The translations under genes were made by a program, and so were the position numbers. From Agromyces marinus (GTDB lineage Bacteria > Actinomycetota > Actinomycetes > Actinomycetales > Microbacteriaceae): DNA of 64,000 nt. Below, in pieces: positions 2 through 58,687 of the stretch. Each line of letters begins with the position of its first letter. The stretch's first letter is position 1. The DNA is taken from assembly GCF_021442325.1 (NCBI RefSeq), contig NZ_CP087879.1, positions 1,116,001 through 1,180,000 on the forward strand. Reading direction: 5' to 3'. Below the pieces are notes generated by a model. It made no database searches, had not been told where the DNA came from, and saw only the letters and a program-made list of their open reading frames with translations.

Positions 2-1084
2 TCGGTCGCGACCGTCGGCGGCGTCGACCTGACGCTGCTGCGCCCCGGCGGCGCCATCCTCCCGGAATCGCCAGAGGCGCCCGACGAACTGCTGCGGCTG
101 CTCGACGCGTGGACGCGTTCCTCCGACGAGCCCGGCGCGCGGCTGGCGGCCGTCATCGAGGGCTTCCATCGCGAGGGCTACGTCAGCCACGGGCTGGAGG
201 ACGAGACGCCGAGCCGATCCGGCCACGCGCTCGACCGGATCGCCGAGCTCGCGACGGCCAACCCGATGGTGGGGGACGGCGAGCAGTACGCGGTCGCGGC
301 TGCGCTCCTCGCGCGCGAGATCGGCTTCCCGGCACGGGTCGTGGTCGGCTACCTGCCACGGCCCGAGGACGACGCAGGGGCCGCACGGGTGCTCCGCAGC
401 TCCGACCTGCAGGCCTGGATCGAAGTGCAGGCAGCGGACGGAGCGTGGATCCCGGTCGACCCCAACCCGGAGGTGCGCCCCGTACCCGAGCGGGAGCCGG
501 ACGACCCCACGGTGGTCTCGCGGCCCCAGTCGGCCCTGCCGCCGCCGGAGGACCCGACACCGCTCGACGACCGTTCGGGCGAGCCGGACTCCGGATCGCA
601 GGACCCCGATCGCGACGACGCCTGGGTCGCCGCGCTCATCGCAACCCTGCGGATCGTCGGCATCGTCCTCGCGTTCCTCGCGCTGCTCGCGAGCCCGTTC
701 GCCGCGATCCTCGTGGCCAAGGCGCGCCGCCGCCGCCTCCGGCGACGAGCTCCGACGTCCGTCGAACGGATCGAGGGCGGATGGCAGGAGTTCGCGGACC
801 AGGCGGCCGACCACGGATACCCGATCGTTCCGACCGCGACTCGCGCCGAACAGGCCGCGGTCGTCGGCGGTCTCGCACCCGCGGTACTCGCCGCAGTCGT
901 CGATCGGGCCGTCTTCGGCCCGGACGGACCGCATCCGGGCGACGACGATCGCGTCTGGGAGTCGGTCGACGAACTCAGGGGACGCCTCGACGAGCCGAGA
1001 TCGCGGCGCGAGCGCCTGCGCGCGCGGGTCTCGCTCGCCTCGCTCGGCGGGTACGCTGGCTCGCGGAAGGGAACGGGGACGTGA
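2..1084 (+). CDS. Transglutaminase-like membrane protein, C-terminal part (5' end outside window)
   Basis: The reading frame is open from the first bases of the window and ends at a TGA at 1082-1084; the N-terminal membrane part lies upstream. The visible part has a transglutaminase-like core (cysteine/helix region at 266-330, Trp-Asp strand region at 405-470), an acidic Pro-rich linker, one transmembrane helix at about 640-715 and a basic/acidic cytoplasmic tail. This is the arrangement of TgpA/DUF3488-type proteins. The core looks catalytically dead: the usual Cys is Gly (codon 278-280, in GDGEQYA) and the usual His of the HAW motif is Gln (LQAWIEV), although the Asp strand (PVDPNP) remains. 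It overlaps the next gene by 4 bp (GTGA). In actinobacteria such genes usually follow MoxR-type ATPase and DUF58 genes, which would be upstream of this window. Its role is unknown; a structural or scaffold function is inferred. Confidence 0.8.
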   Translation, partial: SVATVGGVDLTLLRPGGAILPESPEAPDELLRLLDAWTRSSDEPGARLAAVIEGFHREGYVSHGLEDETPSRSGHALDRIAELATANPMVGDGEQYAVAAALLAREIGFPARVVVGYLPRPEDDAGAARVLRSSDLQAWIEVQAADGAWIPVDPNPEVRPVPEREPDDPTVVSRPQSALPPPEDPTPLDDRSGEPDSGSQDPDRDDAWVAALIATLRIVGIVLAFLALLASPFAAILVAKARRRRLRRRAPTSVERIEGGWQEFADQAADHGYPIVPTATRAEQAAVVGGLAPAVLAAVVDRAVFGPDGPHPGDDDRVWESVDELRGRLDEPRSRRERLRARVSLASLGGYAGSRKGTGT

Positions 1085-6134: not shown

Positions 6135-7333
6135 TGTCGGTTCGCGAATTCGCCGAGAGCGGGGCCGACCTCGAGCTCGTCGGGATCCAGAAGCGCTTCC
6201 CGGGCTTCACGGCCATCGAGGAGCTCGACCTCACGATTCCCGCCGGCTCGTTCTTCGCCCTGCTCGGCCCGTCGGGCTGCGGGAAGACCACCACGCTGCG
6301 TCTGGTCGCCGGGCTCGAGGAGCCGACCAACGGGCGCATCCTGATCGGCGGGAAGGACGTCACGGCCACGCGTGCGCACCAGCGCCCCGTCAACACGGTG
6401 TTCCAGAGCTACGCGCTGTTCCCGCACATGTCGATCATCGAGAACGTCGCGTTCGGGCTCAAGCGTCGCCGGATCGCCGACGCGCAGGCCAGGGCCCACG
6501 AGGCGCTCGCGCTCGTCGAACTCGACCACCTCGCGCAACGCCGACCGGCCCAGCTCTCCGGCGGCCAGCAGCAGCGCGTCGCCCTCGCCAGGGCGATCGT
6601 GAACCGGCCCGCGCTGCTGCTGCTCGACGAACCGCTCGGTGCACTCGACCTGAAGCTCCGCCGGCAGATGCAGCTCGAGCTCAAGACCATCCAGGAGGAG
6701 GTCGGACTGACCTTCCTCCATGTCACCCACGACCAGGAGGAGGCCATGACCATGGCCGACACCGTCGCGGTGATGAACAAGGGCGCGATCGAGCAGATGG
6801 GTGCGCCGGAGGAGCTCTACGAGCTGCCGCGCACGGCGTTCGTGGCGAACTTCCTCGGCAAGTCGAACCTGTTCACGGGCGATGTGGTCGCCACGACCGA
6901 CGCGGCGATCACCGTCGACGCGGGCGGCCATCGCATCGTGGTGCCCACGTCGCGCTCGCAGCGGCACCAGGGCCTGGTCACGATCGGGGTCCGACCCGAG
7001 AAGGTCACGTTGCATCCGGAGGAGCCGGAGCCGTCGTCGGGTCGGAACCTGCTCGGCCCGGGGCACGTCATCGACGTGTCGTTCGCCGGGGTGAGCACCG
7101 AGTACACGGTCGCGGTCCCGGGCGTCGGAACGATGTCGGTGTTCGCGCAGAACATGACGTTCGGCCCCGTCGCGCACGAGGGATCCGAGGTCTGGCTCAG
7201 CTGGGACGTCGAGCACGGGTTCGGGCTCTCCGATGAACCGGACGAGTCCTCGCGCTTCCCGGCGGACTCGGATACGCAGTCCATCGCCGTGCAGCGCCGC
7301 GAAGCGCTCCTCACGGAGCTCGAGGGCAGCTGA
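6134..7333 (+). CDS. potA: Polyamine-type ABC transporter ATP-binding protein
   Basis: This 399-residue ATPase energises the importer. It has Walker A GPSGCGKT at about 45-52, a Q-loop (FQSYALFPHM), the signature LSGGQQQR, Walker B LLLLDEP and a switch His (THDQEEA). The C-terminal third (about 260-370) is a TOBE/OB-type regulatory domain as in PotA and MalK. The chosen ATG (6134) overlaps the potD stop by one base (TGATG); an adjacent GTG at 6131 is an alternative. The ORF can be read upstream in the same frame but only as a shadow of potD. An extra tail of about 25 residues after the TOBE domain is unremarkable. Confidence 0.92.
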   Translation: MSVREFAESGADLELVGIQKRFPGFTAIEELDLTIPAGSFFALLGPSGCGKTTTLRLVAGLEEPTNGRILIGGKDVTATRAHQRPVNTVFQSYALFPHMSIIENVAFGLKRRRIADAQARAHEALALVELDHLAQRRPAQLSGGQQQRVALARAIVNRPALLLLDEPLGALDLKLRRQMQLELKTIQEEVGLTFLHVTHDQEEAMTMADTVAVMNKGAIEQMGAPEELYELPRTAFVANFLGKSNLFTGDVVATTDAAITVDAGGHRIVVPTSRSQRHQGLVTIGVRPEKVTLHPEEPEPSSGRNLLGPGHVIDVSFAGVSTEYTVAVPGVGTMSVFAQNMTFGPVAHEGSEVWLSWDVEHGFGLSDEPDESSRFPADSDTQSIAVQRREALLTELEGS

Positions 7334-53513: not shown

Positions 53514-54167
53514 ATGAACCCGAATCCCGTCCGGCTCTCGGCCGACCAGCGGCGCGAGCAGATCCTCGCGGCCGCGACCCGCGTCTTCGGCGAACTCGGC
53601 TACGCCGGCGCGACGACCGACCGGGTCGCGCGCGCCGCCGGGATCAGCCAGCCCTACGTCGTCCGGCTGTTCGGCACGAAGGAGCAACTGTTCCTGGAGA
53701 CACTGCGGCACACGCTCGCGAGAGTCCTCTCGGTGTTCCGCGAGGCGCTCGCGGCGGAAGACGTGGGAGGCCCTGCGACCGGCCCCGGCCCCGGTCCCGG
53801 CCCCGGCCCCGGCCCCGGCCCGGGCCCCGGGTACGAGACGGAGGCGCGACTCGGCGCGGCCTACCTGGCGCTCGTCGAGGACCGCGGGACCCTGCTCACG
53901 CTCCTGCACGGCTTCCTGATGGGCTCCGACCCGGTGATCGGCCCCGTCGCCCGCGACGGCCTGCTCCAGGTGTTCCGCCTGCTGCGTGACGAGGCGGGCT
54001 TCGCCCCCGAGCAGATCCGCCGCTTCCTCGCCGACGGCGCGCTCATGAACACGCTCCTGGCCTCGGGCATCGGGCTCGCGGTCGAGCGCGATCCGGACGC
54101 GGCGGACCTCATCGCGTGCACGTTCGGCCCCCATGTCGGCGCGGTGCTCGGGCGCGCCTCCGCATGA
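53514..54167 (+). CDS. TetR-family repressor of the adjacent exporter
   Basis: This 217-residue protein has the TetR helix-turn-helix (REQILAAATRVFGELGYAGATTDRVARAAGIS; YVVRLFGTKEQLF). A stretch of eight Gly-Pro dipeptides (53781-53828) interrupts the start of the ligand domain. The C-terminal half has the EDRGTLLTLLHGFLMGSD segment common in regulators of MFS pumps. The ATG lies 7 nt after TAACCT. It probably represses both itself and the divergent exporter through the repeats at 53461-53504. Confidence 0.88.
   Translation: MNPNPVRLSADQRREQILAAATRVFGELGYAGATTDRVARAAGISQPYVVRLFGTKEQLFLETLRHTLARVLSVFREALAAEDVGGPATGPGPGPGPGPGPGPGPGYETEARLGAAYLALVEDRGTLLTLLHGFLMGSDPVIGPVARDGLLQVFRLLRDEAGFAPEQIRRFLADGALMNTLLASGIGLAVERDPDAADLIACTFGPHVGAVLGRASA
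53781..53828 (+). repeat. (Gly-Pro)8-coding hexanucleotide repeat
   Basis: Eight consecutive GGNCCN units encode (GP)8 inside the TetR gene. Such a run is prone to slippage in whole units, which keeps the frame but changes linker length. Confidence 0.8.
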
Positions 54168-54254: not shown

Positions 54255-55199
54255 ATGGACGAGACCGACGAACTCCTCTCGATCCGAGCTGCCGAGCTCT
54301 ACTACGAGGAGAACAAGACCCAGGACGAGATCGGCCAGGCCCTGCGGCTCACCCGCTGGAAGGTCGGGCGGCTGCTCGCGCAGGCCAAGCAACGCGGCTT
54401 CATCCGCATCGAGATCCTGCATCCGCGCGCCCGGCGGCTGCCCATCGAGCGCCGCCTCCGCGAGGAACGCGGGCTCGACGACGCGATCGTCGTGTCCGCC
54501 GCGGGCGTGGCATCCGCTGAGGAGCTGCAGGCCCGCACCGCCCAGGCCGCGGCCGACTACCTGACCGCCCTGCGGCCCGTGCCGCGCACGCTCGGAGTGA
54601 GCTGGGGCCGAACGCTCTTCGAGATCTCCCAGCACCTGCGCACCGGGTGGGCGACCGGCGCCAACGTCGTCCAGATCAACGGCGGCGTGAGCCTGAACCG
54701 CCGCGCGGGCACGGCGGCCGCCACGGCCGTCGCCATCGCCCAGAAGGGCGGCGGGAGCGCCACGCTCCTGCCCAGCCCCGCCATCCTCGAGCACCTCGCG
54801 ACGAAGGAGGCCATCGAGGCCGACCGCGTCGTCGCCGGGGTCATCGACCTGGCCCGTTCGGCCGACGCCTTCCTGTTCAGCGCCGGACCGGCCGACCACA
54901 CGTCCATCCACATCGAGAGCGGCTACCTCACCGAATCCGACGTCGACCTCCTGGTGCAGAAGGGCGCCGTCGGCGACGTCGTCGGCCGCTACATCGACTC
55001 CGACGGCAACATCGTCGACGCCGCGCTCGACGCGCGCACGGTCGGCCTCACGCTCGACGACCTGCGCGGCACCCGCCTGCGCATCGCCGTGATCGCCGGC
55101 CGCAGCAAGCACCCCGTCGCCGACGCCGTCGTGCGCTCCGGGCTGTGCTCCGTCCTCGTCACCGACGAGGCCACGGCCCTCGACCTCCTCGACGGCTGA
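54255..55199 (+). CDS. deoR: SorC/DeoR-type sugar-binding transcriptional regulator
   Basis: This 314-residue regulator has an N-terminal helix-turn-helix (KTQDEIGQALRLTRWKVGRLLAQAKQ, about 22-45) and a C-terminal sugar-phosphate-binding domain (LGVSWGRTL; QINGGV; AGPADHTSIHIESGYL) of the SorC/CggR/DeoR(Bacillus) class. Members sense phosphorylated sugars. It stands first in an operon with deoC, so deoxyribose 5-phosphate is the likely signal. A perfect inverted repeat at 54175-54188 is a possible binding site. Confidence 0.87.
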   Translation: MDETDELLSIRAAELYYEENKTQDEIGQALRLTRWKVGRLLAQAKQRGFIRIEILHPRARRLPIERRLREERGLDDAIVVSAAGVASAEELQARTAQAAADYLTALRPVPRTLGVSWGRTLFEISQHLRTGWATGANVVQINGGVSLNRRAGTAAATAVAIAQKGGGSATLLPSPAILEHLATKEAIEADRVVAGVIDLARSADAFLFSAGPADHTSIHIESGYLTESDVDLLVQKGAVGDVVGRYIDSDGNIVDAALDARTVGLTLDDLRGTRLRIAVIAGRSKHPVADAVVRSGLCSVLVTDEATALDLLDG

Positions 55200-55224: not shown

Positions 55225-56232
55225 ATGTCCGGCACCTCACTCGTCACCGCGCGCGAGCGCGCTGTGGCCGTCCTCGGCGGCCAGCCCGACGACGCGACGC
55301 TCCGCAGGTACCTGCACGGCATCGCGGGCGTCGACGCCGTCGGCCTCGAACAGCGCGCGGCGGGCCTCGCCACGCGCTCGATCAAGACCTCGTCCAAGAC
55401 CTGGGCGCTCGATCGCATCATCTCGCTCATCGACCTCACCACGCTCGAGGGCGCCGACACCCCGGGCAAGGTGCGCTCGCTCGTCGCGAAGGCCATGACC
55501 CCCGACCCGACGGATGCCACGACCCCGCGCGTCGCGGCCGTCTGCGTCTACGGTGACATGGTCCCGTTCGCGGTCGACGCGCTCGGCTCCGCGCACGGCG
55601 ACCCCGACGACGGGCTCGTCTCGGTCGCGGCCGTCGCGACCGCGTTCCCGTCGGGCCGGTCCTCGCTCGAGATCAAGCTCGCCGACACCGCCGAGGCCGT
55701 CGCGGCCGGCGCCGACGAGATCGACATGGTCATCGACCGTGGAGCGTTCCTCGCGGGCCGCTACGGGCAGGTGTTCGACCAGATCGCCGCGGTCAAGGAG
55801 GCCTGCCGTCGCCCCGACGGCACGAGCGCGTCGCTCAAGGTCATCCTCGAGACCGGCGAGCTCGTCACCTACGACAACGTCCGTCGCGCCTCGTGGCTGT
55901 CCATCCTCGCGGGCGGCGACTTCATCAAGACCTCGACCGGCAAGGTCCAGCCCGCAGCGACCCTGCCCGTGACGCTGCTCATGCTCGAGGTCGTGCGCGA
56001 CTGGCACCTGCTGACGGGCCAGCGCATCGGCGTGAAGCCCGCGGGCGGCATCCGCGCCTCGAAGGACGCGATCAGGTACCTCGTGACCGTCGCCGAGACC
56101 GTCGGCGAGGAGTGGCTCGTGCCCCACCTCTTCCGGTTCGGGGCGTCCAGCCTGCTGAACGACGTGCTCCTGCAGCGCCGGAAGATGGCCAGCGGCCACT
56201 ACTCCGGACCCGACTACGTGACGATCGACTGA
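55225..56232 (+). CDS. deoC: Deoxyribose-phosphate aldolase
   Basis: This 335-residue class I aldolase cleaves 2-deoxyribose 5-phosphate to glyceraldehyde 3-phosphate and acetaldehyde. The Schiff-base lysine is K235 in DFIKTSTGK, and the second site lysine is in GVKPAGGIR. It also has IDLTTLEG and EIDMVIDRGAFL. It is longer than the usual bacterial enzyme (about 220-260) and matches the eukaryote-like DERA length. The ATG follows aagaaag. It lies between the regulator and the aldehyde dehydrogenase pair. Confidence 0.94.
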   Translation: MSGTSLVTARERAVAVLGGQPDDATLRRYLHGIAGVDAVGLEQRAAGLATRSIKTSSKTWALDRIISLIDLTTLEGADTPGKVRSLVAKAMTPDPTDATTPRVAAVCVYGDMVPFAVDALGSAHGDPDDGLVSVAAVATAFPSGRSSLEIKLADTAEAVAAGADEIDMVIDRGAFLAGRYGQVFDQIAAVKEACRRPDGTSASLKVILETGELVTYDNVRRASWLSILAGGDFIKTSTGKVQPAATLPVTLLMLEVVRDWHLLTGQRIGVKPAGGIRASKDAIRYLVTVAETVGEEWLVPHLFRFGASSLLNDVLLQRRKMASGHYSGPDYVTID

Positions 56233-56249
56233 GACGAGAGCACCGCATC

Positions 56250-57830
56250 ATGAGCTTCCTCGAATACGCACCCGCCCCCGAGTCGCGGGCGATCCTCTCC
56301 CTCCGCGACCAGTACGGCCTCTTCATCGACGGCGAGTTCGTCGACGGACGGGGCACGCCCTTCCAGACCATCTCGCCCGCGAGCGAGGAGCGCATCGCGA
56401 TGATCGCGAACGCGAACGGCGCCGACGTCGACGACGCCGTCGCCGCGGCCCGGCGCGCCCACGACCGCGTCTGGTCGAAGATGTCGGGCCGCGACCGGGG
56501 CAAGTACCTGTTCCGCATCGCCCGGCTCGTGCAGGAACGCGCGCGCGAACTCGCCGTCGCCGAGTCGCTCGACAACGGCAAGCCCATCAAGGAGTCCCGC
56601 GACGTCGACGTGCCGCTCGTGGCCGCCTGGTTCTTCTACTACGCGGGCTGGGCCGACAAGCTCGACCACGCGGGCCTCGGTGCGAACCCGCGGGCGTTGG
56701 GCGTCGCCGCGCAGGTGATCCCGTGGAACTTCCCGCTGCTCATGCTCGCGTGGAAGATCGCGCCGGCGCTCGCGGCGGGCAACACGGTCGTCCTCAAGCC
56801 CGCCGAGACCACGCCGCTGACCGCGCTGATCTTCGCCGAGATCGTGCAGCAGGCCGACCTGCCGCCCGGCGTCGTGAACATCGTGACCGGCGCGGGCGAC
56901 ACGGGCGCCGCGCTCGTCGCCCACGAGGGCGTCGACAAGGTGGCCTTCACCGGGTCGACGGCCGTCGGCCGCGCGATCGCGAAGCAGGTCGCGGGCACCG
57001 ACAAGAAGGTCACGCTCGAGCTCGGCGGCAAGGCCGCGAACATCGTGTTCGACGACGCGCCCATCGACCAGGCCATCGAGGGCATCGTCAACGGCATCTT
57101 CTTCAACCAGGGGCACGTGTGCTGCGCGGGCAGCCGACTGCTCGTGCAGGAGTCGATCCACGACGAGGTCGTCGAGCGGCTCAAGAACCGGCTGTCGACG
57201 CTTCGCCTCGGCGACCCGCTCGACAAGAACACCGACATCGGGGCGATCAACTCGCGCGAGCAGCTCGAGCGCATCCGCGCGCTCTCCGACGCGGGCGTCG
57301 ACGAGGGGGCCGATCGGTGGAGCGCTCCGTGCGAGATCCCCGAGAACGGGTTCTGGTACGCGCCGACGATCTTCACCAACGTGCAGACCTCGAACCGCAT
57401 CGCGCGCGAGGAGATCTTCGGGCCGGTGCTCTCGGTGCTGACCTTCCGCACGCCGCAGGAGGCGATCGCGAAGGCGAACAACACGCCCTACGGCCTCTCG
57501 GCAGGCATCTGGACCGACAAGGGCAGCCGCATCCTCGCGGTCGCCGACCAGCTGCGCGCGGGCGTCATCTGGGCGAACACGTTCAACCGGTTCGACCCCT
57601 CGAGCCCGTTCGGCGGGTACAAGGAGTCCGGCTACGGTCGCGAGGGCGGCAGGCACGGGCTCGGGGCGTACCTCGCTCCGGCATCCGTCACCTCGAGTCG
57701 TCGCGGCACGCCCCGCGCCGTGGCGGCCGCGGCCGAGGCATCCGACACGAAGCCCGCGGCGCGTCGCCGCACCGCGCGAAGCGCGAAGTCCACGAAGACC
57801 ACCAAGACCACGAAGGGAGCCGCGAAGTGA
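56250..57830 (+). CDS. Aldehyde dehydrogenase, catalytic half of an ALDH16-like pair
   Basis: This 526-residue aldehyde dehydrogenase has the NAD-binding QVIPWNFPLLMLAWKIAPALAAGNTVVLKPAE, the catalytic Glu in LELGGKAANIVF and Cys (C291, in GHVCCAG). PLTALIFAEIV and the C-terminal SSPFGGYKESGYGREGG are also present. It ends in a Lys/Thr/Ala-rich tail (about 480-526) that looks like a flexible linker. In the deo operon it probably oxidises the acetaldehyde released by DeoC. The next gene begins in its stop codon and resembles the second, truncated half of ALDH16 proteins. Confidence 0.88.
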   Translation: MSFLEYAPAPESRAILSLRDQYGLFIDGEFVDGRGTPFQTISPASEERIAMIANANGADVDDAVAAARRAHDRVWSKMSGRDRGKYLFRIARLVQERARELAVAESLDNGKPIKESRDVDVPLVAAWFFYYAGWADKLDHAGLGANPRALGVAAQVIPWNFPLLMLAWKIAPALAAGNTVVLKPAETTPLTALIFAEIVQQADLPPGVVNIVTGAGDTGAALVAHEGVDKVAFTGSTAVGRAIAKQVAGTDKKVTLELGGKAANIVFDDAPIDQAIEGIVNGIFFNQGHVCCAGSRLLVQESIHDEVVERLKNRLSTLRLGDPLDKNTDIGAINSREQLERIRALSDAGVDEGADRWSAPCEIPENGFWYAPTIFTNVQTSNRIAREEIFGPVLSVLTFRTPQEAIAKANNTPYGLSAGIWTDKGSRILAVADQLRAGVIWANTFNRFDPSSPFGGYKESGYGREGGRHGLGAYLAPASVTSSRRGTPRAVAAAAEASDTKPAARRRTARSAKSTKTTKTTKGAAK

Positions 57831-58687
57831 GCCGCCTCGCCGTACCCAAGACGTACAAGCTGTTCATCGGCGGCGCGTTCCCGCGCAGCGAGTCCGGTCG
57901 CACCTACGAGGTGACCCGGGCCGACGGGGCGTTCCTCGCCAACGCCGCGAAGGCGTCGCGCAAGGACGCGCGCGACGCGGTCGTCGCCGCTCGCGGCGGC
58001 GTCGCCGGGTGGGCCGGAGCGACCGCGTACAACCGCGGCCAGGTGCTCTACCGCATCGCCGAGCTGCTCGAGGGGCGGCGGGCGCAGTTCGTCGCCGAGA
58101 TCGAGGATGCCGAGGGCGTCACGCGCGCCGAGGCCGGCGCCCAGGTCGACGAGGCGATCGACCGCTGGGTCTGGTACGCGGGCTGGGCCGACAAGTTCGC
58201 GCAGGTCGCGGGAGGCGCCAACCCGGTCGCGGGCCCGTACTTCAACATCTCGGTGCCCGAGCCGACCGGGGTGGTCGCGGTCATCGCTCCGCAGGACTCC
58301 TCGCTCGTCGGACTCGTCTCGGCGATCGCGCCGGCGCTCGTCGCCGGCAACTCGGTGGTCGTGGTCGCGAGTGAGCGGTTCCCGCTCTCGGCGATCAGCC
58401 TGGCCGAGGTCCTCGCGACGAGCGACGTGCCCAAGGGCGTCGTCAACGTCCTCACCGGATCGCCAGCCGAGATCGCACCGTGGCTCGCGAGCCACGCCGA
58501 CGTCAACGCGATCGACCTGGTGGGCGCCGGCGACCTCGACTGGATCGACCTCGAGATCGCGGCCGCCGAGACCCTCAAGCGCGTGCTCCGGCCCGAGCAG
58601 GGCGCGGATGCCGCGGCTCCGGCGCTCGACCGGATCTCGGCGTTCACCGAGACCAAGACGGTCTGGCACACGAAGAGCCTGCGGTAG
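57827..58687 (+). CDS. Truncated aldehyde dehydrogenase-like protein without catalytic domain
   Basis: This 286-residue protein begins like an aldehyde dehydrogenase (YKLFIGGAFPRSESGRTYEV) and keeps the Rossmann part (VVAVIAPQDSSLVGLVSAIAPALVAGNSVVVVAS; DVPKGVVNVLTG). It stops after AFTETKTVWHTKSLR and has neither catalytic Cys nor Glu. The GTG start overlaps the preceding stop (GTGA). ALDH16 proteins carry exactly such a second, inactive, shortened domain on one chain of about 780-800 residues; 526 plus 286 gives 812. I infer that the two genes encode a split ALDH16, with this subunit structural. Confidence 0.82.
   Translation: MSRLAVPKTYKLFIGGAFPRSESGRTYEVTRADGAFLANAAKASRKDARDAVVAARGGVAGWAGATAYNRGQVLYRIAELLEGRRAQFVAEIEDAEGVTRAEAGAQVDEAIDRWVWYAGWADKFAQVAGGANPVAGPYFNISVPEPTGVVAVIAPQDSSLVGLVSAIAPALVAGNSVVVVASERFPLSAISLAEVLATSDVPKGVVNVLTGSPAEIAPWLASHADVNAIDLVGAGDLDWIDLEIAAAETLKRVLRPEQGADAAAPALDRISAFTETKTVWHTKSLR

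Follow-up and report, generated by a model that had tools for sequence, protein, structure and literature searches.

Does Agromyces marinus make ALDH16, a single long protein in animals and in other bacteria, in the form of two proteins, and, if so, how are the two arrangements related and which reaction do they serve? Bacterial ALDH16 enzymes carry out NAD-dependent aldehyde oxidation. In the window, that is, the whole 64,000-nucleotide stretch of DNA analysed, two adjoining genes (gene A and gene B) had been read from the sequence as the two aldehyde dehydrogenase (ALDH) domains of ALDH16, one active and one truncated, encoded apart in an operon with the deoxyribose-phosphate aldolase gene deoC. 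According to excerpts of two papers (PMC8160307 and PMC10650815), the extra domain of ALDH16 is called non-functional and the physiological substrate of the human member is listed as unknown. Neither a two-gene ALDH16 nor an ALDH16 with deoC was found among the open-access literature matches listed, and neither is mentioned in the excerpts of PMC8160307, PMC10650815, PMC6365646, PMC8346489 and PMC9007349.

Gene A and gene B of Agromyces marinus

The sequence bears out the predicted layout of two genes, encoding 526 and 286 residues and joined by a GTGA overlap (Table 1). The gene A product is a complete ALDH with the motifs NQGHVCCAGSR, LELGGK and PWNFP, and the Pfam ALDH domain covers profile positions 1-458 of 461 in it, as against only 6-232 in the product of gene B, which begins with a GTG start codon. 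The gene B product contains no cysteine and no E-L-G-G-K motif. It had been described as a domain without Cys or Glu, which stands for Cys but, in the case of Glu, is true just for the catalytic residue, because gene B contains ordinary Glu residues. Together, the two products amount to 812 residues, a length that had been noted as matching the family, and the solved ALDH16 chain has 767; the surplus is about the size of the 48-residue low-confidence tail of gene A.

Table 1. Features of the ALDH16-type locus of Agromyces marinus (positions in the window).
Feature	Position	Strand	Evidence
SorC/DeoR-type sugar-sensing regulator	54255..55199	+	Pfam Sugar-bind PF04198, 178 bits
deoC, deoxyribose-phosphate aldolase	55225..56232	+	TIGR00126 162.6 bits (cut-off 117.3); Pfam DeoC
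Gene A, putative active ALDH subunit, corresponding to ALDH16 residues 11-503	56250..57830	+	Pfam Aldedh 541 bits
Catalytic-type Glu codon, E257 of gene A	57018..57020	+	Invariant column
CC pair with catalytic-type Cys, C291-C292 of gene A	57120..57125	+	Invariant columns
Lineage-specific tail of gene A rich in Lys/Thr/Ala/Arg, residues 479-526	57684..57827	+	pLDDT <50 throughout
GTGA overlap of gene B start with gene A stop (TGA)	57827..57830	+	Sequence
Gene B, putative non-catalytic ALDH16-type subunit (Rossmann part and C-terminal strand), corresponding to ALDH16 residues 500-762	57827..58687	+	
C-terminal strand at residues 274-282 of gene B, equivalent to the classical ALDH strand; motif absent from gene A	58646..58672	+	Predicted strand

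Each gene product matches one part of ALDH16

In a PDB sequence search, the gene A product retrieved bacterial ALDH16 first (6mvr, 530 bits, residues 11-503), the next non-ALDH16 entry scoring 423, and ALDH16 was also the top match of the gene B product (200 bits, residues 500-762; next other entry, 113 bits). The gap between 113 and 200 bits, like that between 117 and 254 bits among the actinobacterial matches listed below, puts the assignment of gene B well beyond chance. The best match of both, the Loktanella sp. enzyme (6mvr/6mvs/6mvt/6mvu), likewise has an active ALDH domain with a non-catalytic ALDH remnant behind it, but on one polypeptide instead of two. Foldseek ranked ALDH16 first for the AlphaFold model of gene B (pLDDT 89.7), and VIA-align aligned this model with residues 494-766 of 6mvu_A over 273 residues (Z 36.6, rmsd 2.0). 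Against ordinary ALDHs it reached Z 36.1, a tie with ALDH16 by the tool’s own rule, so fold alone cannot single out ALDH16 for gene B. For gene A, ALDH16 was absent from the 50 VIA-align matches listed, while the sequence search ranks it first. The alignment of gene B to ordinary ALDHs extends up to their C-terminal end (for example, 8..286 on 7..482 of 4nmj), and gene B therefore looks like an ALDH from which the catalytic domain was excised while both ends stayed in place.

The proposed layout was thus matched domain for domain, gene A providing the complete ALDH domain with the catalytic Cys and gene B the second, truncated and non-catalytic ALDH domain. The two domains occupy separate frames here, and none of the 77 scorable actinobacterial loci described below is fused. 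Since A and B are on separate chains, we name the pair a split sister of ALDH16 and keep it apart from the fused members. Human ALDH16A1, compared by description only, also belongs to the family and is described in excerpts of PMC10650815 and PMC8160307 as non-catalytic; it lacks the catalytic residues that gene A keeps. Gene A has the fold of the classical tetrameric ALDHs (ALDH1/2, betaine aldehyde dehydrogenase) and gene B that fold minus the catalytic domain, but those enzymes carry the catalytic domain and the C-terminal strand on one chain, whereas here they are divided between A and B.

Distribution of split and fused forms

We surveyed 396 genomes of Actinomycetota. C domains of at least 254 bits were present in 84 of them, all others among the matches listed scoring 117 or less; A orthologues were found in 82, and A and B together in 81. 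The two genes co-occurred in 81 of the 85 genomes holding either one, and the other four are cut by contig ends: in G211, G267 and G287, scored as B only, a piece of A adjoins B at the contig end, and in G135, scored as A only, A is cut by the contig start. Three of the 84 C-domain genomes (G149, G178 and G181) were left out of the set of loci that we scored, twelve loci repeating a genome were dropped before scoring, and loci with short flanks were exchanged for longer ones. The 81 actinobacterial loci comprised 77 split, no fused and four cut before A. The survey of fused and split forms proposed with the original prediction thus returned the split form in 77 of 77 scorable loci, and a special standing of the A. 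marinus locus, which has the only form found among them, is not supported. The nearest start of B lies at or before the stop of A in 56 of 76 actinobacterial split loci. A frameshifted single gene was also considered and is ruled out, as all 77 scorable loci are split, mostly with short overlaps; in one of them (L044), the A match is broken over two frames, which we took as a frameshift and omitted from the overlap, tail and post-GRE counts. Nonomuraea gerenzanensis, also of the Actinomycetota, shares 77% identity in A and 68% in B, and the fused groups sampled have a mean identity of 53-54% to A and 33-38% to B.

Outside Actinomycetota, with each phylum named from the record of its central genome, C-domain profile matches exceeded the threshold in 47 of 398 genomes of Pseudomonadota (three of them ordinary ALDHs with no more than 164 bits), 24 of 194 of Verrucomicrobiota, 136 of 200 of Gemmatimonadota (three with no more than 171 bits) and 20 of 52 of SAR324. 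In the fetched part of these matches, Verrucomicrobiota had 21 split loci, four fused and two without A, and Gemmatimonadota had 11 split (one of them, L287, doubtful), eight fused and four without A; SAR324 had 11 fused and one broken locus, and Pseudomonadota 33 fused. The broken SAR324 locus (L245), scored as split, was not counted as a split pair because of a stop inside its A domain. The remaining genome-contig loci contributed 74 fused genes; they come from the best 80 of at least 593 confirmed candidates, ranked by similarity to Loktanella ALDH16, so Rhodobacterales are over-represented. Among the gemmatimonad matches listed, the 12 with the best scores lie in open frames of 430 aa or less and most others in open frames at least about 790 aa long, which makes the fused form commoner than the split one in Gemmatimonadota. 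Ten loci without an upstream A went unscored: four actinobacterial and four gemmatimonad with no more than about 0.4 kb before the contig end, L256, whose A lies on another contig, and the verrucomicrobial L273. As a separate observation, a contig labelled Nocardioides marinus (L090) carries a fused ALDH16 with a C domain 73% identical to that of Loktanella and may represent a mislabelled or contaminated roseobacter genome.

The two genes are not always contiguous. In Verrucomicrobiota, more than 60 nt separate A and B in 13 of the 19 split loci with a readable start. We inspected nine wide gaps, six of which (L254, L258, L259, L260, L261 and L263) appear to hold the same transporter, identified in L261 as a POT family member (PF00854, 245 bits). 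A small protein of the PDDEXK_3 nuclease superfamily is encoded at L259:3533-3922, a small protein resembling it by eye lies in the inserts of L264 and L270, and the L271 insert encodes another protein. Genome G964 carries A on contig C11, 27 kb from the nearer end, and B on contig C4, 145 kb from the nearer end, so the partners could work in trans; no deoC was found within about 6 kb on either side of A, nor within 7 kb upstream or 2.4 kb downstream of B. Another verrucomicrobial genome, G906 (locus L273), has a fused-type C domain next to an N-domain piece that corresponds to residues 363-478 of A, and its 1.7 Mb yielded no A match at E <= 1e-80; this may be a truncated or broken gene, an assembly gap or a lone C domain. 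In the gemmatimonad L287, which belongs to the fused clade, the two domains are in different frames with a GC-rich repetitive stretch between them (6780-6916 in gene orientation), which may be a genuine secondary split, a variable repeat or a misassembly.

Phylogeny of split and fused ALDH16

A concatenated FastTree phylogeny was computed from 139 loci (68 split, 69 fused, L287 and L245). A branch with a support of 100 separated the 68 split loci (37 actinobacterial, 21 verrucomicrobial and 10 gemmatimonad) from all 69 fused loci together with L287 and L245. In these sequence trees, which hold bacterial proteins only, the split pairs of Actinomycetota, Verrucomicrobiota and Gemmatimonadota group with ALDH16 and are the sister clade of its fused form. 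Given this two-clade tree, a single main switch in gene form accounts for the data. When the tree was rooted on six other ALDHs of the A. marinus genome, the root of the A and N domains fell between the split and fused clades, with SH-aLRT values of 99 for the split clade, 90 for the fused clade and 99 for A and fused N domains against the six ALDHs; this tree has very long outgroup branches and does not include L287 and L245.

The C domains of split and fused forms fell into a single clade, separate from N domains and from ordinary ALDHs, with 100/100 support in two trees. An independent truncation of gene B, the outcome named beforehand as fatal to the ALDH16 assignment, is ruled out by this joint clade. 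Although the entire catalytic domain is absent from B, as it would be in a truncated and decaying copy of some stand-alone ALDH, be it a pseudogene or an independent truncation, we give almost no credence to such an origin: B lies in one clade with fused ALDH16 C domains, orthologous C domains are found in 84 of 396 actinobacterial genomes, with separate genes in two further phyla, and motifs are common to split and fused forms.

As to the direction of change, a plausible but tentative reading is that the split pair represents ALDH16 before fusion. A duplicated ALDH beside deoC would have lost its catalytic domain, become an obligate partner and later been fused once, giving the single-chain ALDH16 of Pseudomonadota and others. 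The split state may instead have arisen when an ancestral fused ALDH16 underwent fission, and a root between two sister clades decides neither direction. We consider fission possible but rather doubtful, since it would take duplication, fusion and fission, compared to the fewer steps of a split-first history (duplication and one fusion), and since split A proteins lack a conserved linker remnant.

Active site and complementary C-termini

The Cys, Glu, Asn and Lys active-site columns of the A/N domain are invariant in all 68 split and all 69 fused loci of the 139-locus alignment. A strict motif scan gave no Glu motif in 17 of 108 split loci and no Cys motif in 11 of 130 fused ones; the alignment columns show both residues in every counted locus. 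At the other end of the pair, a KTxW-type motif closes 106 of 108 split C domains and 67 of 130 fused C domains, and a wider pattern admitting KNIW recovers it in 130 of 130 fused C domains. None of 107 split A proteins showed the KTxW-type motif after GRE, and none of the N domains showed it in the final 25 residues (0 of 108 split and 0 of 130 fused). Eight of 16 ordinary ALDHs (L336-L343) extend 20 residues past the last GRE/GRD and end in a YTxxKSVW-like strand, others having different ends, and the median number of residues past GRE in split A proteins is 15 in actinobacterial (76), 13 in verrucomicrobial (21) and 13 in gemmatimonad (10) sequences. From the motif counts and the shorter ends, it follows that split A proteins lack the strand motif and some of its length. 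L287 and L245 were kept apart from motif, column and tail counts.

The Lys/Thr/Ala tail of gene A had been seen as linker-like, and a remnant of a fusion linker was therefore considered. Past GREGG, split A proteins have a median of 13 residues in 75 actinobacterial, 11 in 19 verrucomicrobial and 11 in nine gemmatimonad loci. Long Lys-rich tails, of 30-59 residues past GREGG, occur in just four of 107 split A proteins, those of A. marinus, two congeners and one member of the same family; the next-longest ends reach 26 residues past GRE and are not Lys-rich. Being confined to near relatives, and modelled with low confidence, the tail is a late addition and not a remnant of fusion. It may resemble nucleic-acid-binding tails.

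Linkage to deoC

In A. marinus, 17 nt separate the end of deoC from the start of gene A. The SorC/DeoR-type gene upstream of deoC, which scores 231 bits with the NCBIfam DeoR model NF053881, under its cut-off of 420, likely regulates the operon. Further upstream, a TetR-type regulator gene (53514-54167, PF00440) with a long mid-protein Gly-Pro repeat (GPGPGP...) adjoins a divergent frame resembling, by eye, an MFS efflux protein.

We counted deoC in split loci with at least 1.6 kb of upstream sequence. A same-strand deoC was present in 73 of 74 such actinobacterial loci, at 1.5 kb or less in 69, abutting in L049 and at 1.6-2.6 kb in L305, L312 and L317; the 74th (L041) has a mere piece of deoC at the contig edge. 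It also accompanied every such split pair of Verrucomicrobiota (21 of 21) and Gemmatimonadota (11 of 11), the latter including the doubtful L287. Fused bacterial ALDH16 sits behind deoC as well. In the genome-contig set (best 80 of at least 593), all 78 fused loci free of contig-end cuts have deoC on the same strand, 0.75 kb or less upstream; the two contig-cut loci outside this count are L114, unscored here and fused in the locus scoring, and L117. For fused loci from the phylum searches, again given 1.6 kb or more of upstream sequence, deoC was present in six of six gemmatimonad, six of six Pseudomonadota and one of two SAR324 loci; the exception (L323), with no deoC in 5.4 kb upstream, is the sole fused locus with upstream room that lacks it. 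In the annotated record of Paracoccus ferrooxidans, deoC is followed by the fused ALDH, and the same deoC-first order is seen in S. fredii NGR234 (fused) and Nonomuraea (split).

The predicted position behind deoC is thus kept across split and fused forms, and deoC adjoins the gene or pair in five phyla. Taken as a whole, the original interpretation is supported in part, in its equivalence to ALDH16 and its link with deoC, but not in the linker-like tail or the special standing of the locus.

A probable two-subunit ALDH16-type enzyme

We consider it probable that A and B form an ALDH16-type enzyme in two separate subunits that oxidises the acetaldehyde released by DeoC, inferring association, stoichiometry and substrate from the comparisons above. 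The gene A product would bind NAD and oxidise the aldehyde, and the gene B product, retaining the Rossmann part and the C-terminal strand of an ALDH minus its catalytic domain, would most likely dock on A in the position that the C-terminal domain takes in ALDH16. Excerpts of PMC8160307 describe domain-swapped dimerisation in ALDHs and an ALDH16 dimer that mimics the classical ALDH tetramer. In the simplest account, an A-B heterodimer would replace the classical dimer, and two such pairs would assemble into an A2B2 complex of the same shape. B would lend its strand to the catalytic domain of A, which would need no strand of its own because B has no catalytic domain. The persistence of the pair with a transporter gene in between, or on different contigs as in G964, speaks for this reading. 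Points against it are the VIA-align results for both genes, the lack of deoC near either gene of G964 and upstream of the fused L323, and the G906 C domain with just a fragment of an N domain next to it.

B might instead be a separate regulatory or chaperone-like pseudoenzyme, acting transiently on A or DeoC rather than as a stoichiometric subunit. The catalytic Cys and the ELGGK motif are absent from it, the A and B genes can be apart, and roles of this kind are discussed for human ALDH16A1 in excerpts of PMC10650815. We nonetheless judge a transient partner quite improbable, given that the matching domains share one chain in the sister clade, that the complementary C-termini point to a fixed interface and that B co-occurs almost perfectly with A.

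For the proposed two-subunit enzyme, the gene neighbourhood by itself suggests that the ALDH16 family clears acetaldehyde from DNA-sugar recycling. DeoC would cleave deoxyribose 5-phosphate, its products being acetaldehyde and glyceraldehyde 3-phosphate (PMC6365646, in excerpt), and A-B would turn the acetaldehyde into acetate. The A. marinus genome also encodes an acetyl-CoA synthetase (952 bits) and a pyrimidine phosphorylase (549 bits), both over their cut-offs, which makes a route from deoxynucleosides to acetyl-CoA plausible, as judged from these sequence matches. The pair could also oxidise another aldehyde, such as glyceraldehyde or one from another nucleoside-derived sugar, with deoC linked for regulation only: the assignment of acetaldehyde comes from gene neighbourhood only, DeoC also releases glyceraldehyde 3-phosphate, and gene A is under every listed NCBIfam cut-off (best 25 of 44), so the models give no substrate. 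Against this stand the adjoining deoC in five phyla and in both forms, and acetaldehyde as a product of DeoC in the excerpted source (PMC6365646), and we regard a different aldehyde as unlikely.

Implications for the ALDH16 family

With A and B on separate chains in a large bacterial lineage, the extra domain of ALDH16 can be omitted, re-added, titrated or swapped, which a fused chain does not allow, and the position of deoC, kept in both forms, points to one concrete reaction. The complementary losses, of the catalytic domain in one partner and of the strand motif in the other, would offer a clear example of an enzyme homo-oligomer turning into a hetero-oligomer, with the sister lineage bringing it onto one chain. 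If the split pair does represent ALDH16 before fusion, the founding job of the family would have been the disposal of acetaldehyde from DNA-sugar salvage, and an orphan family would gain a testable function.
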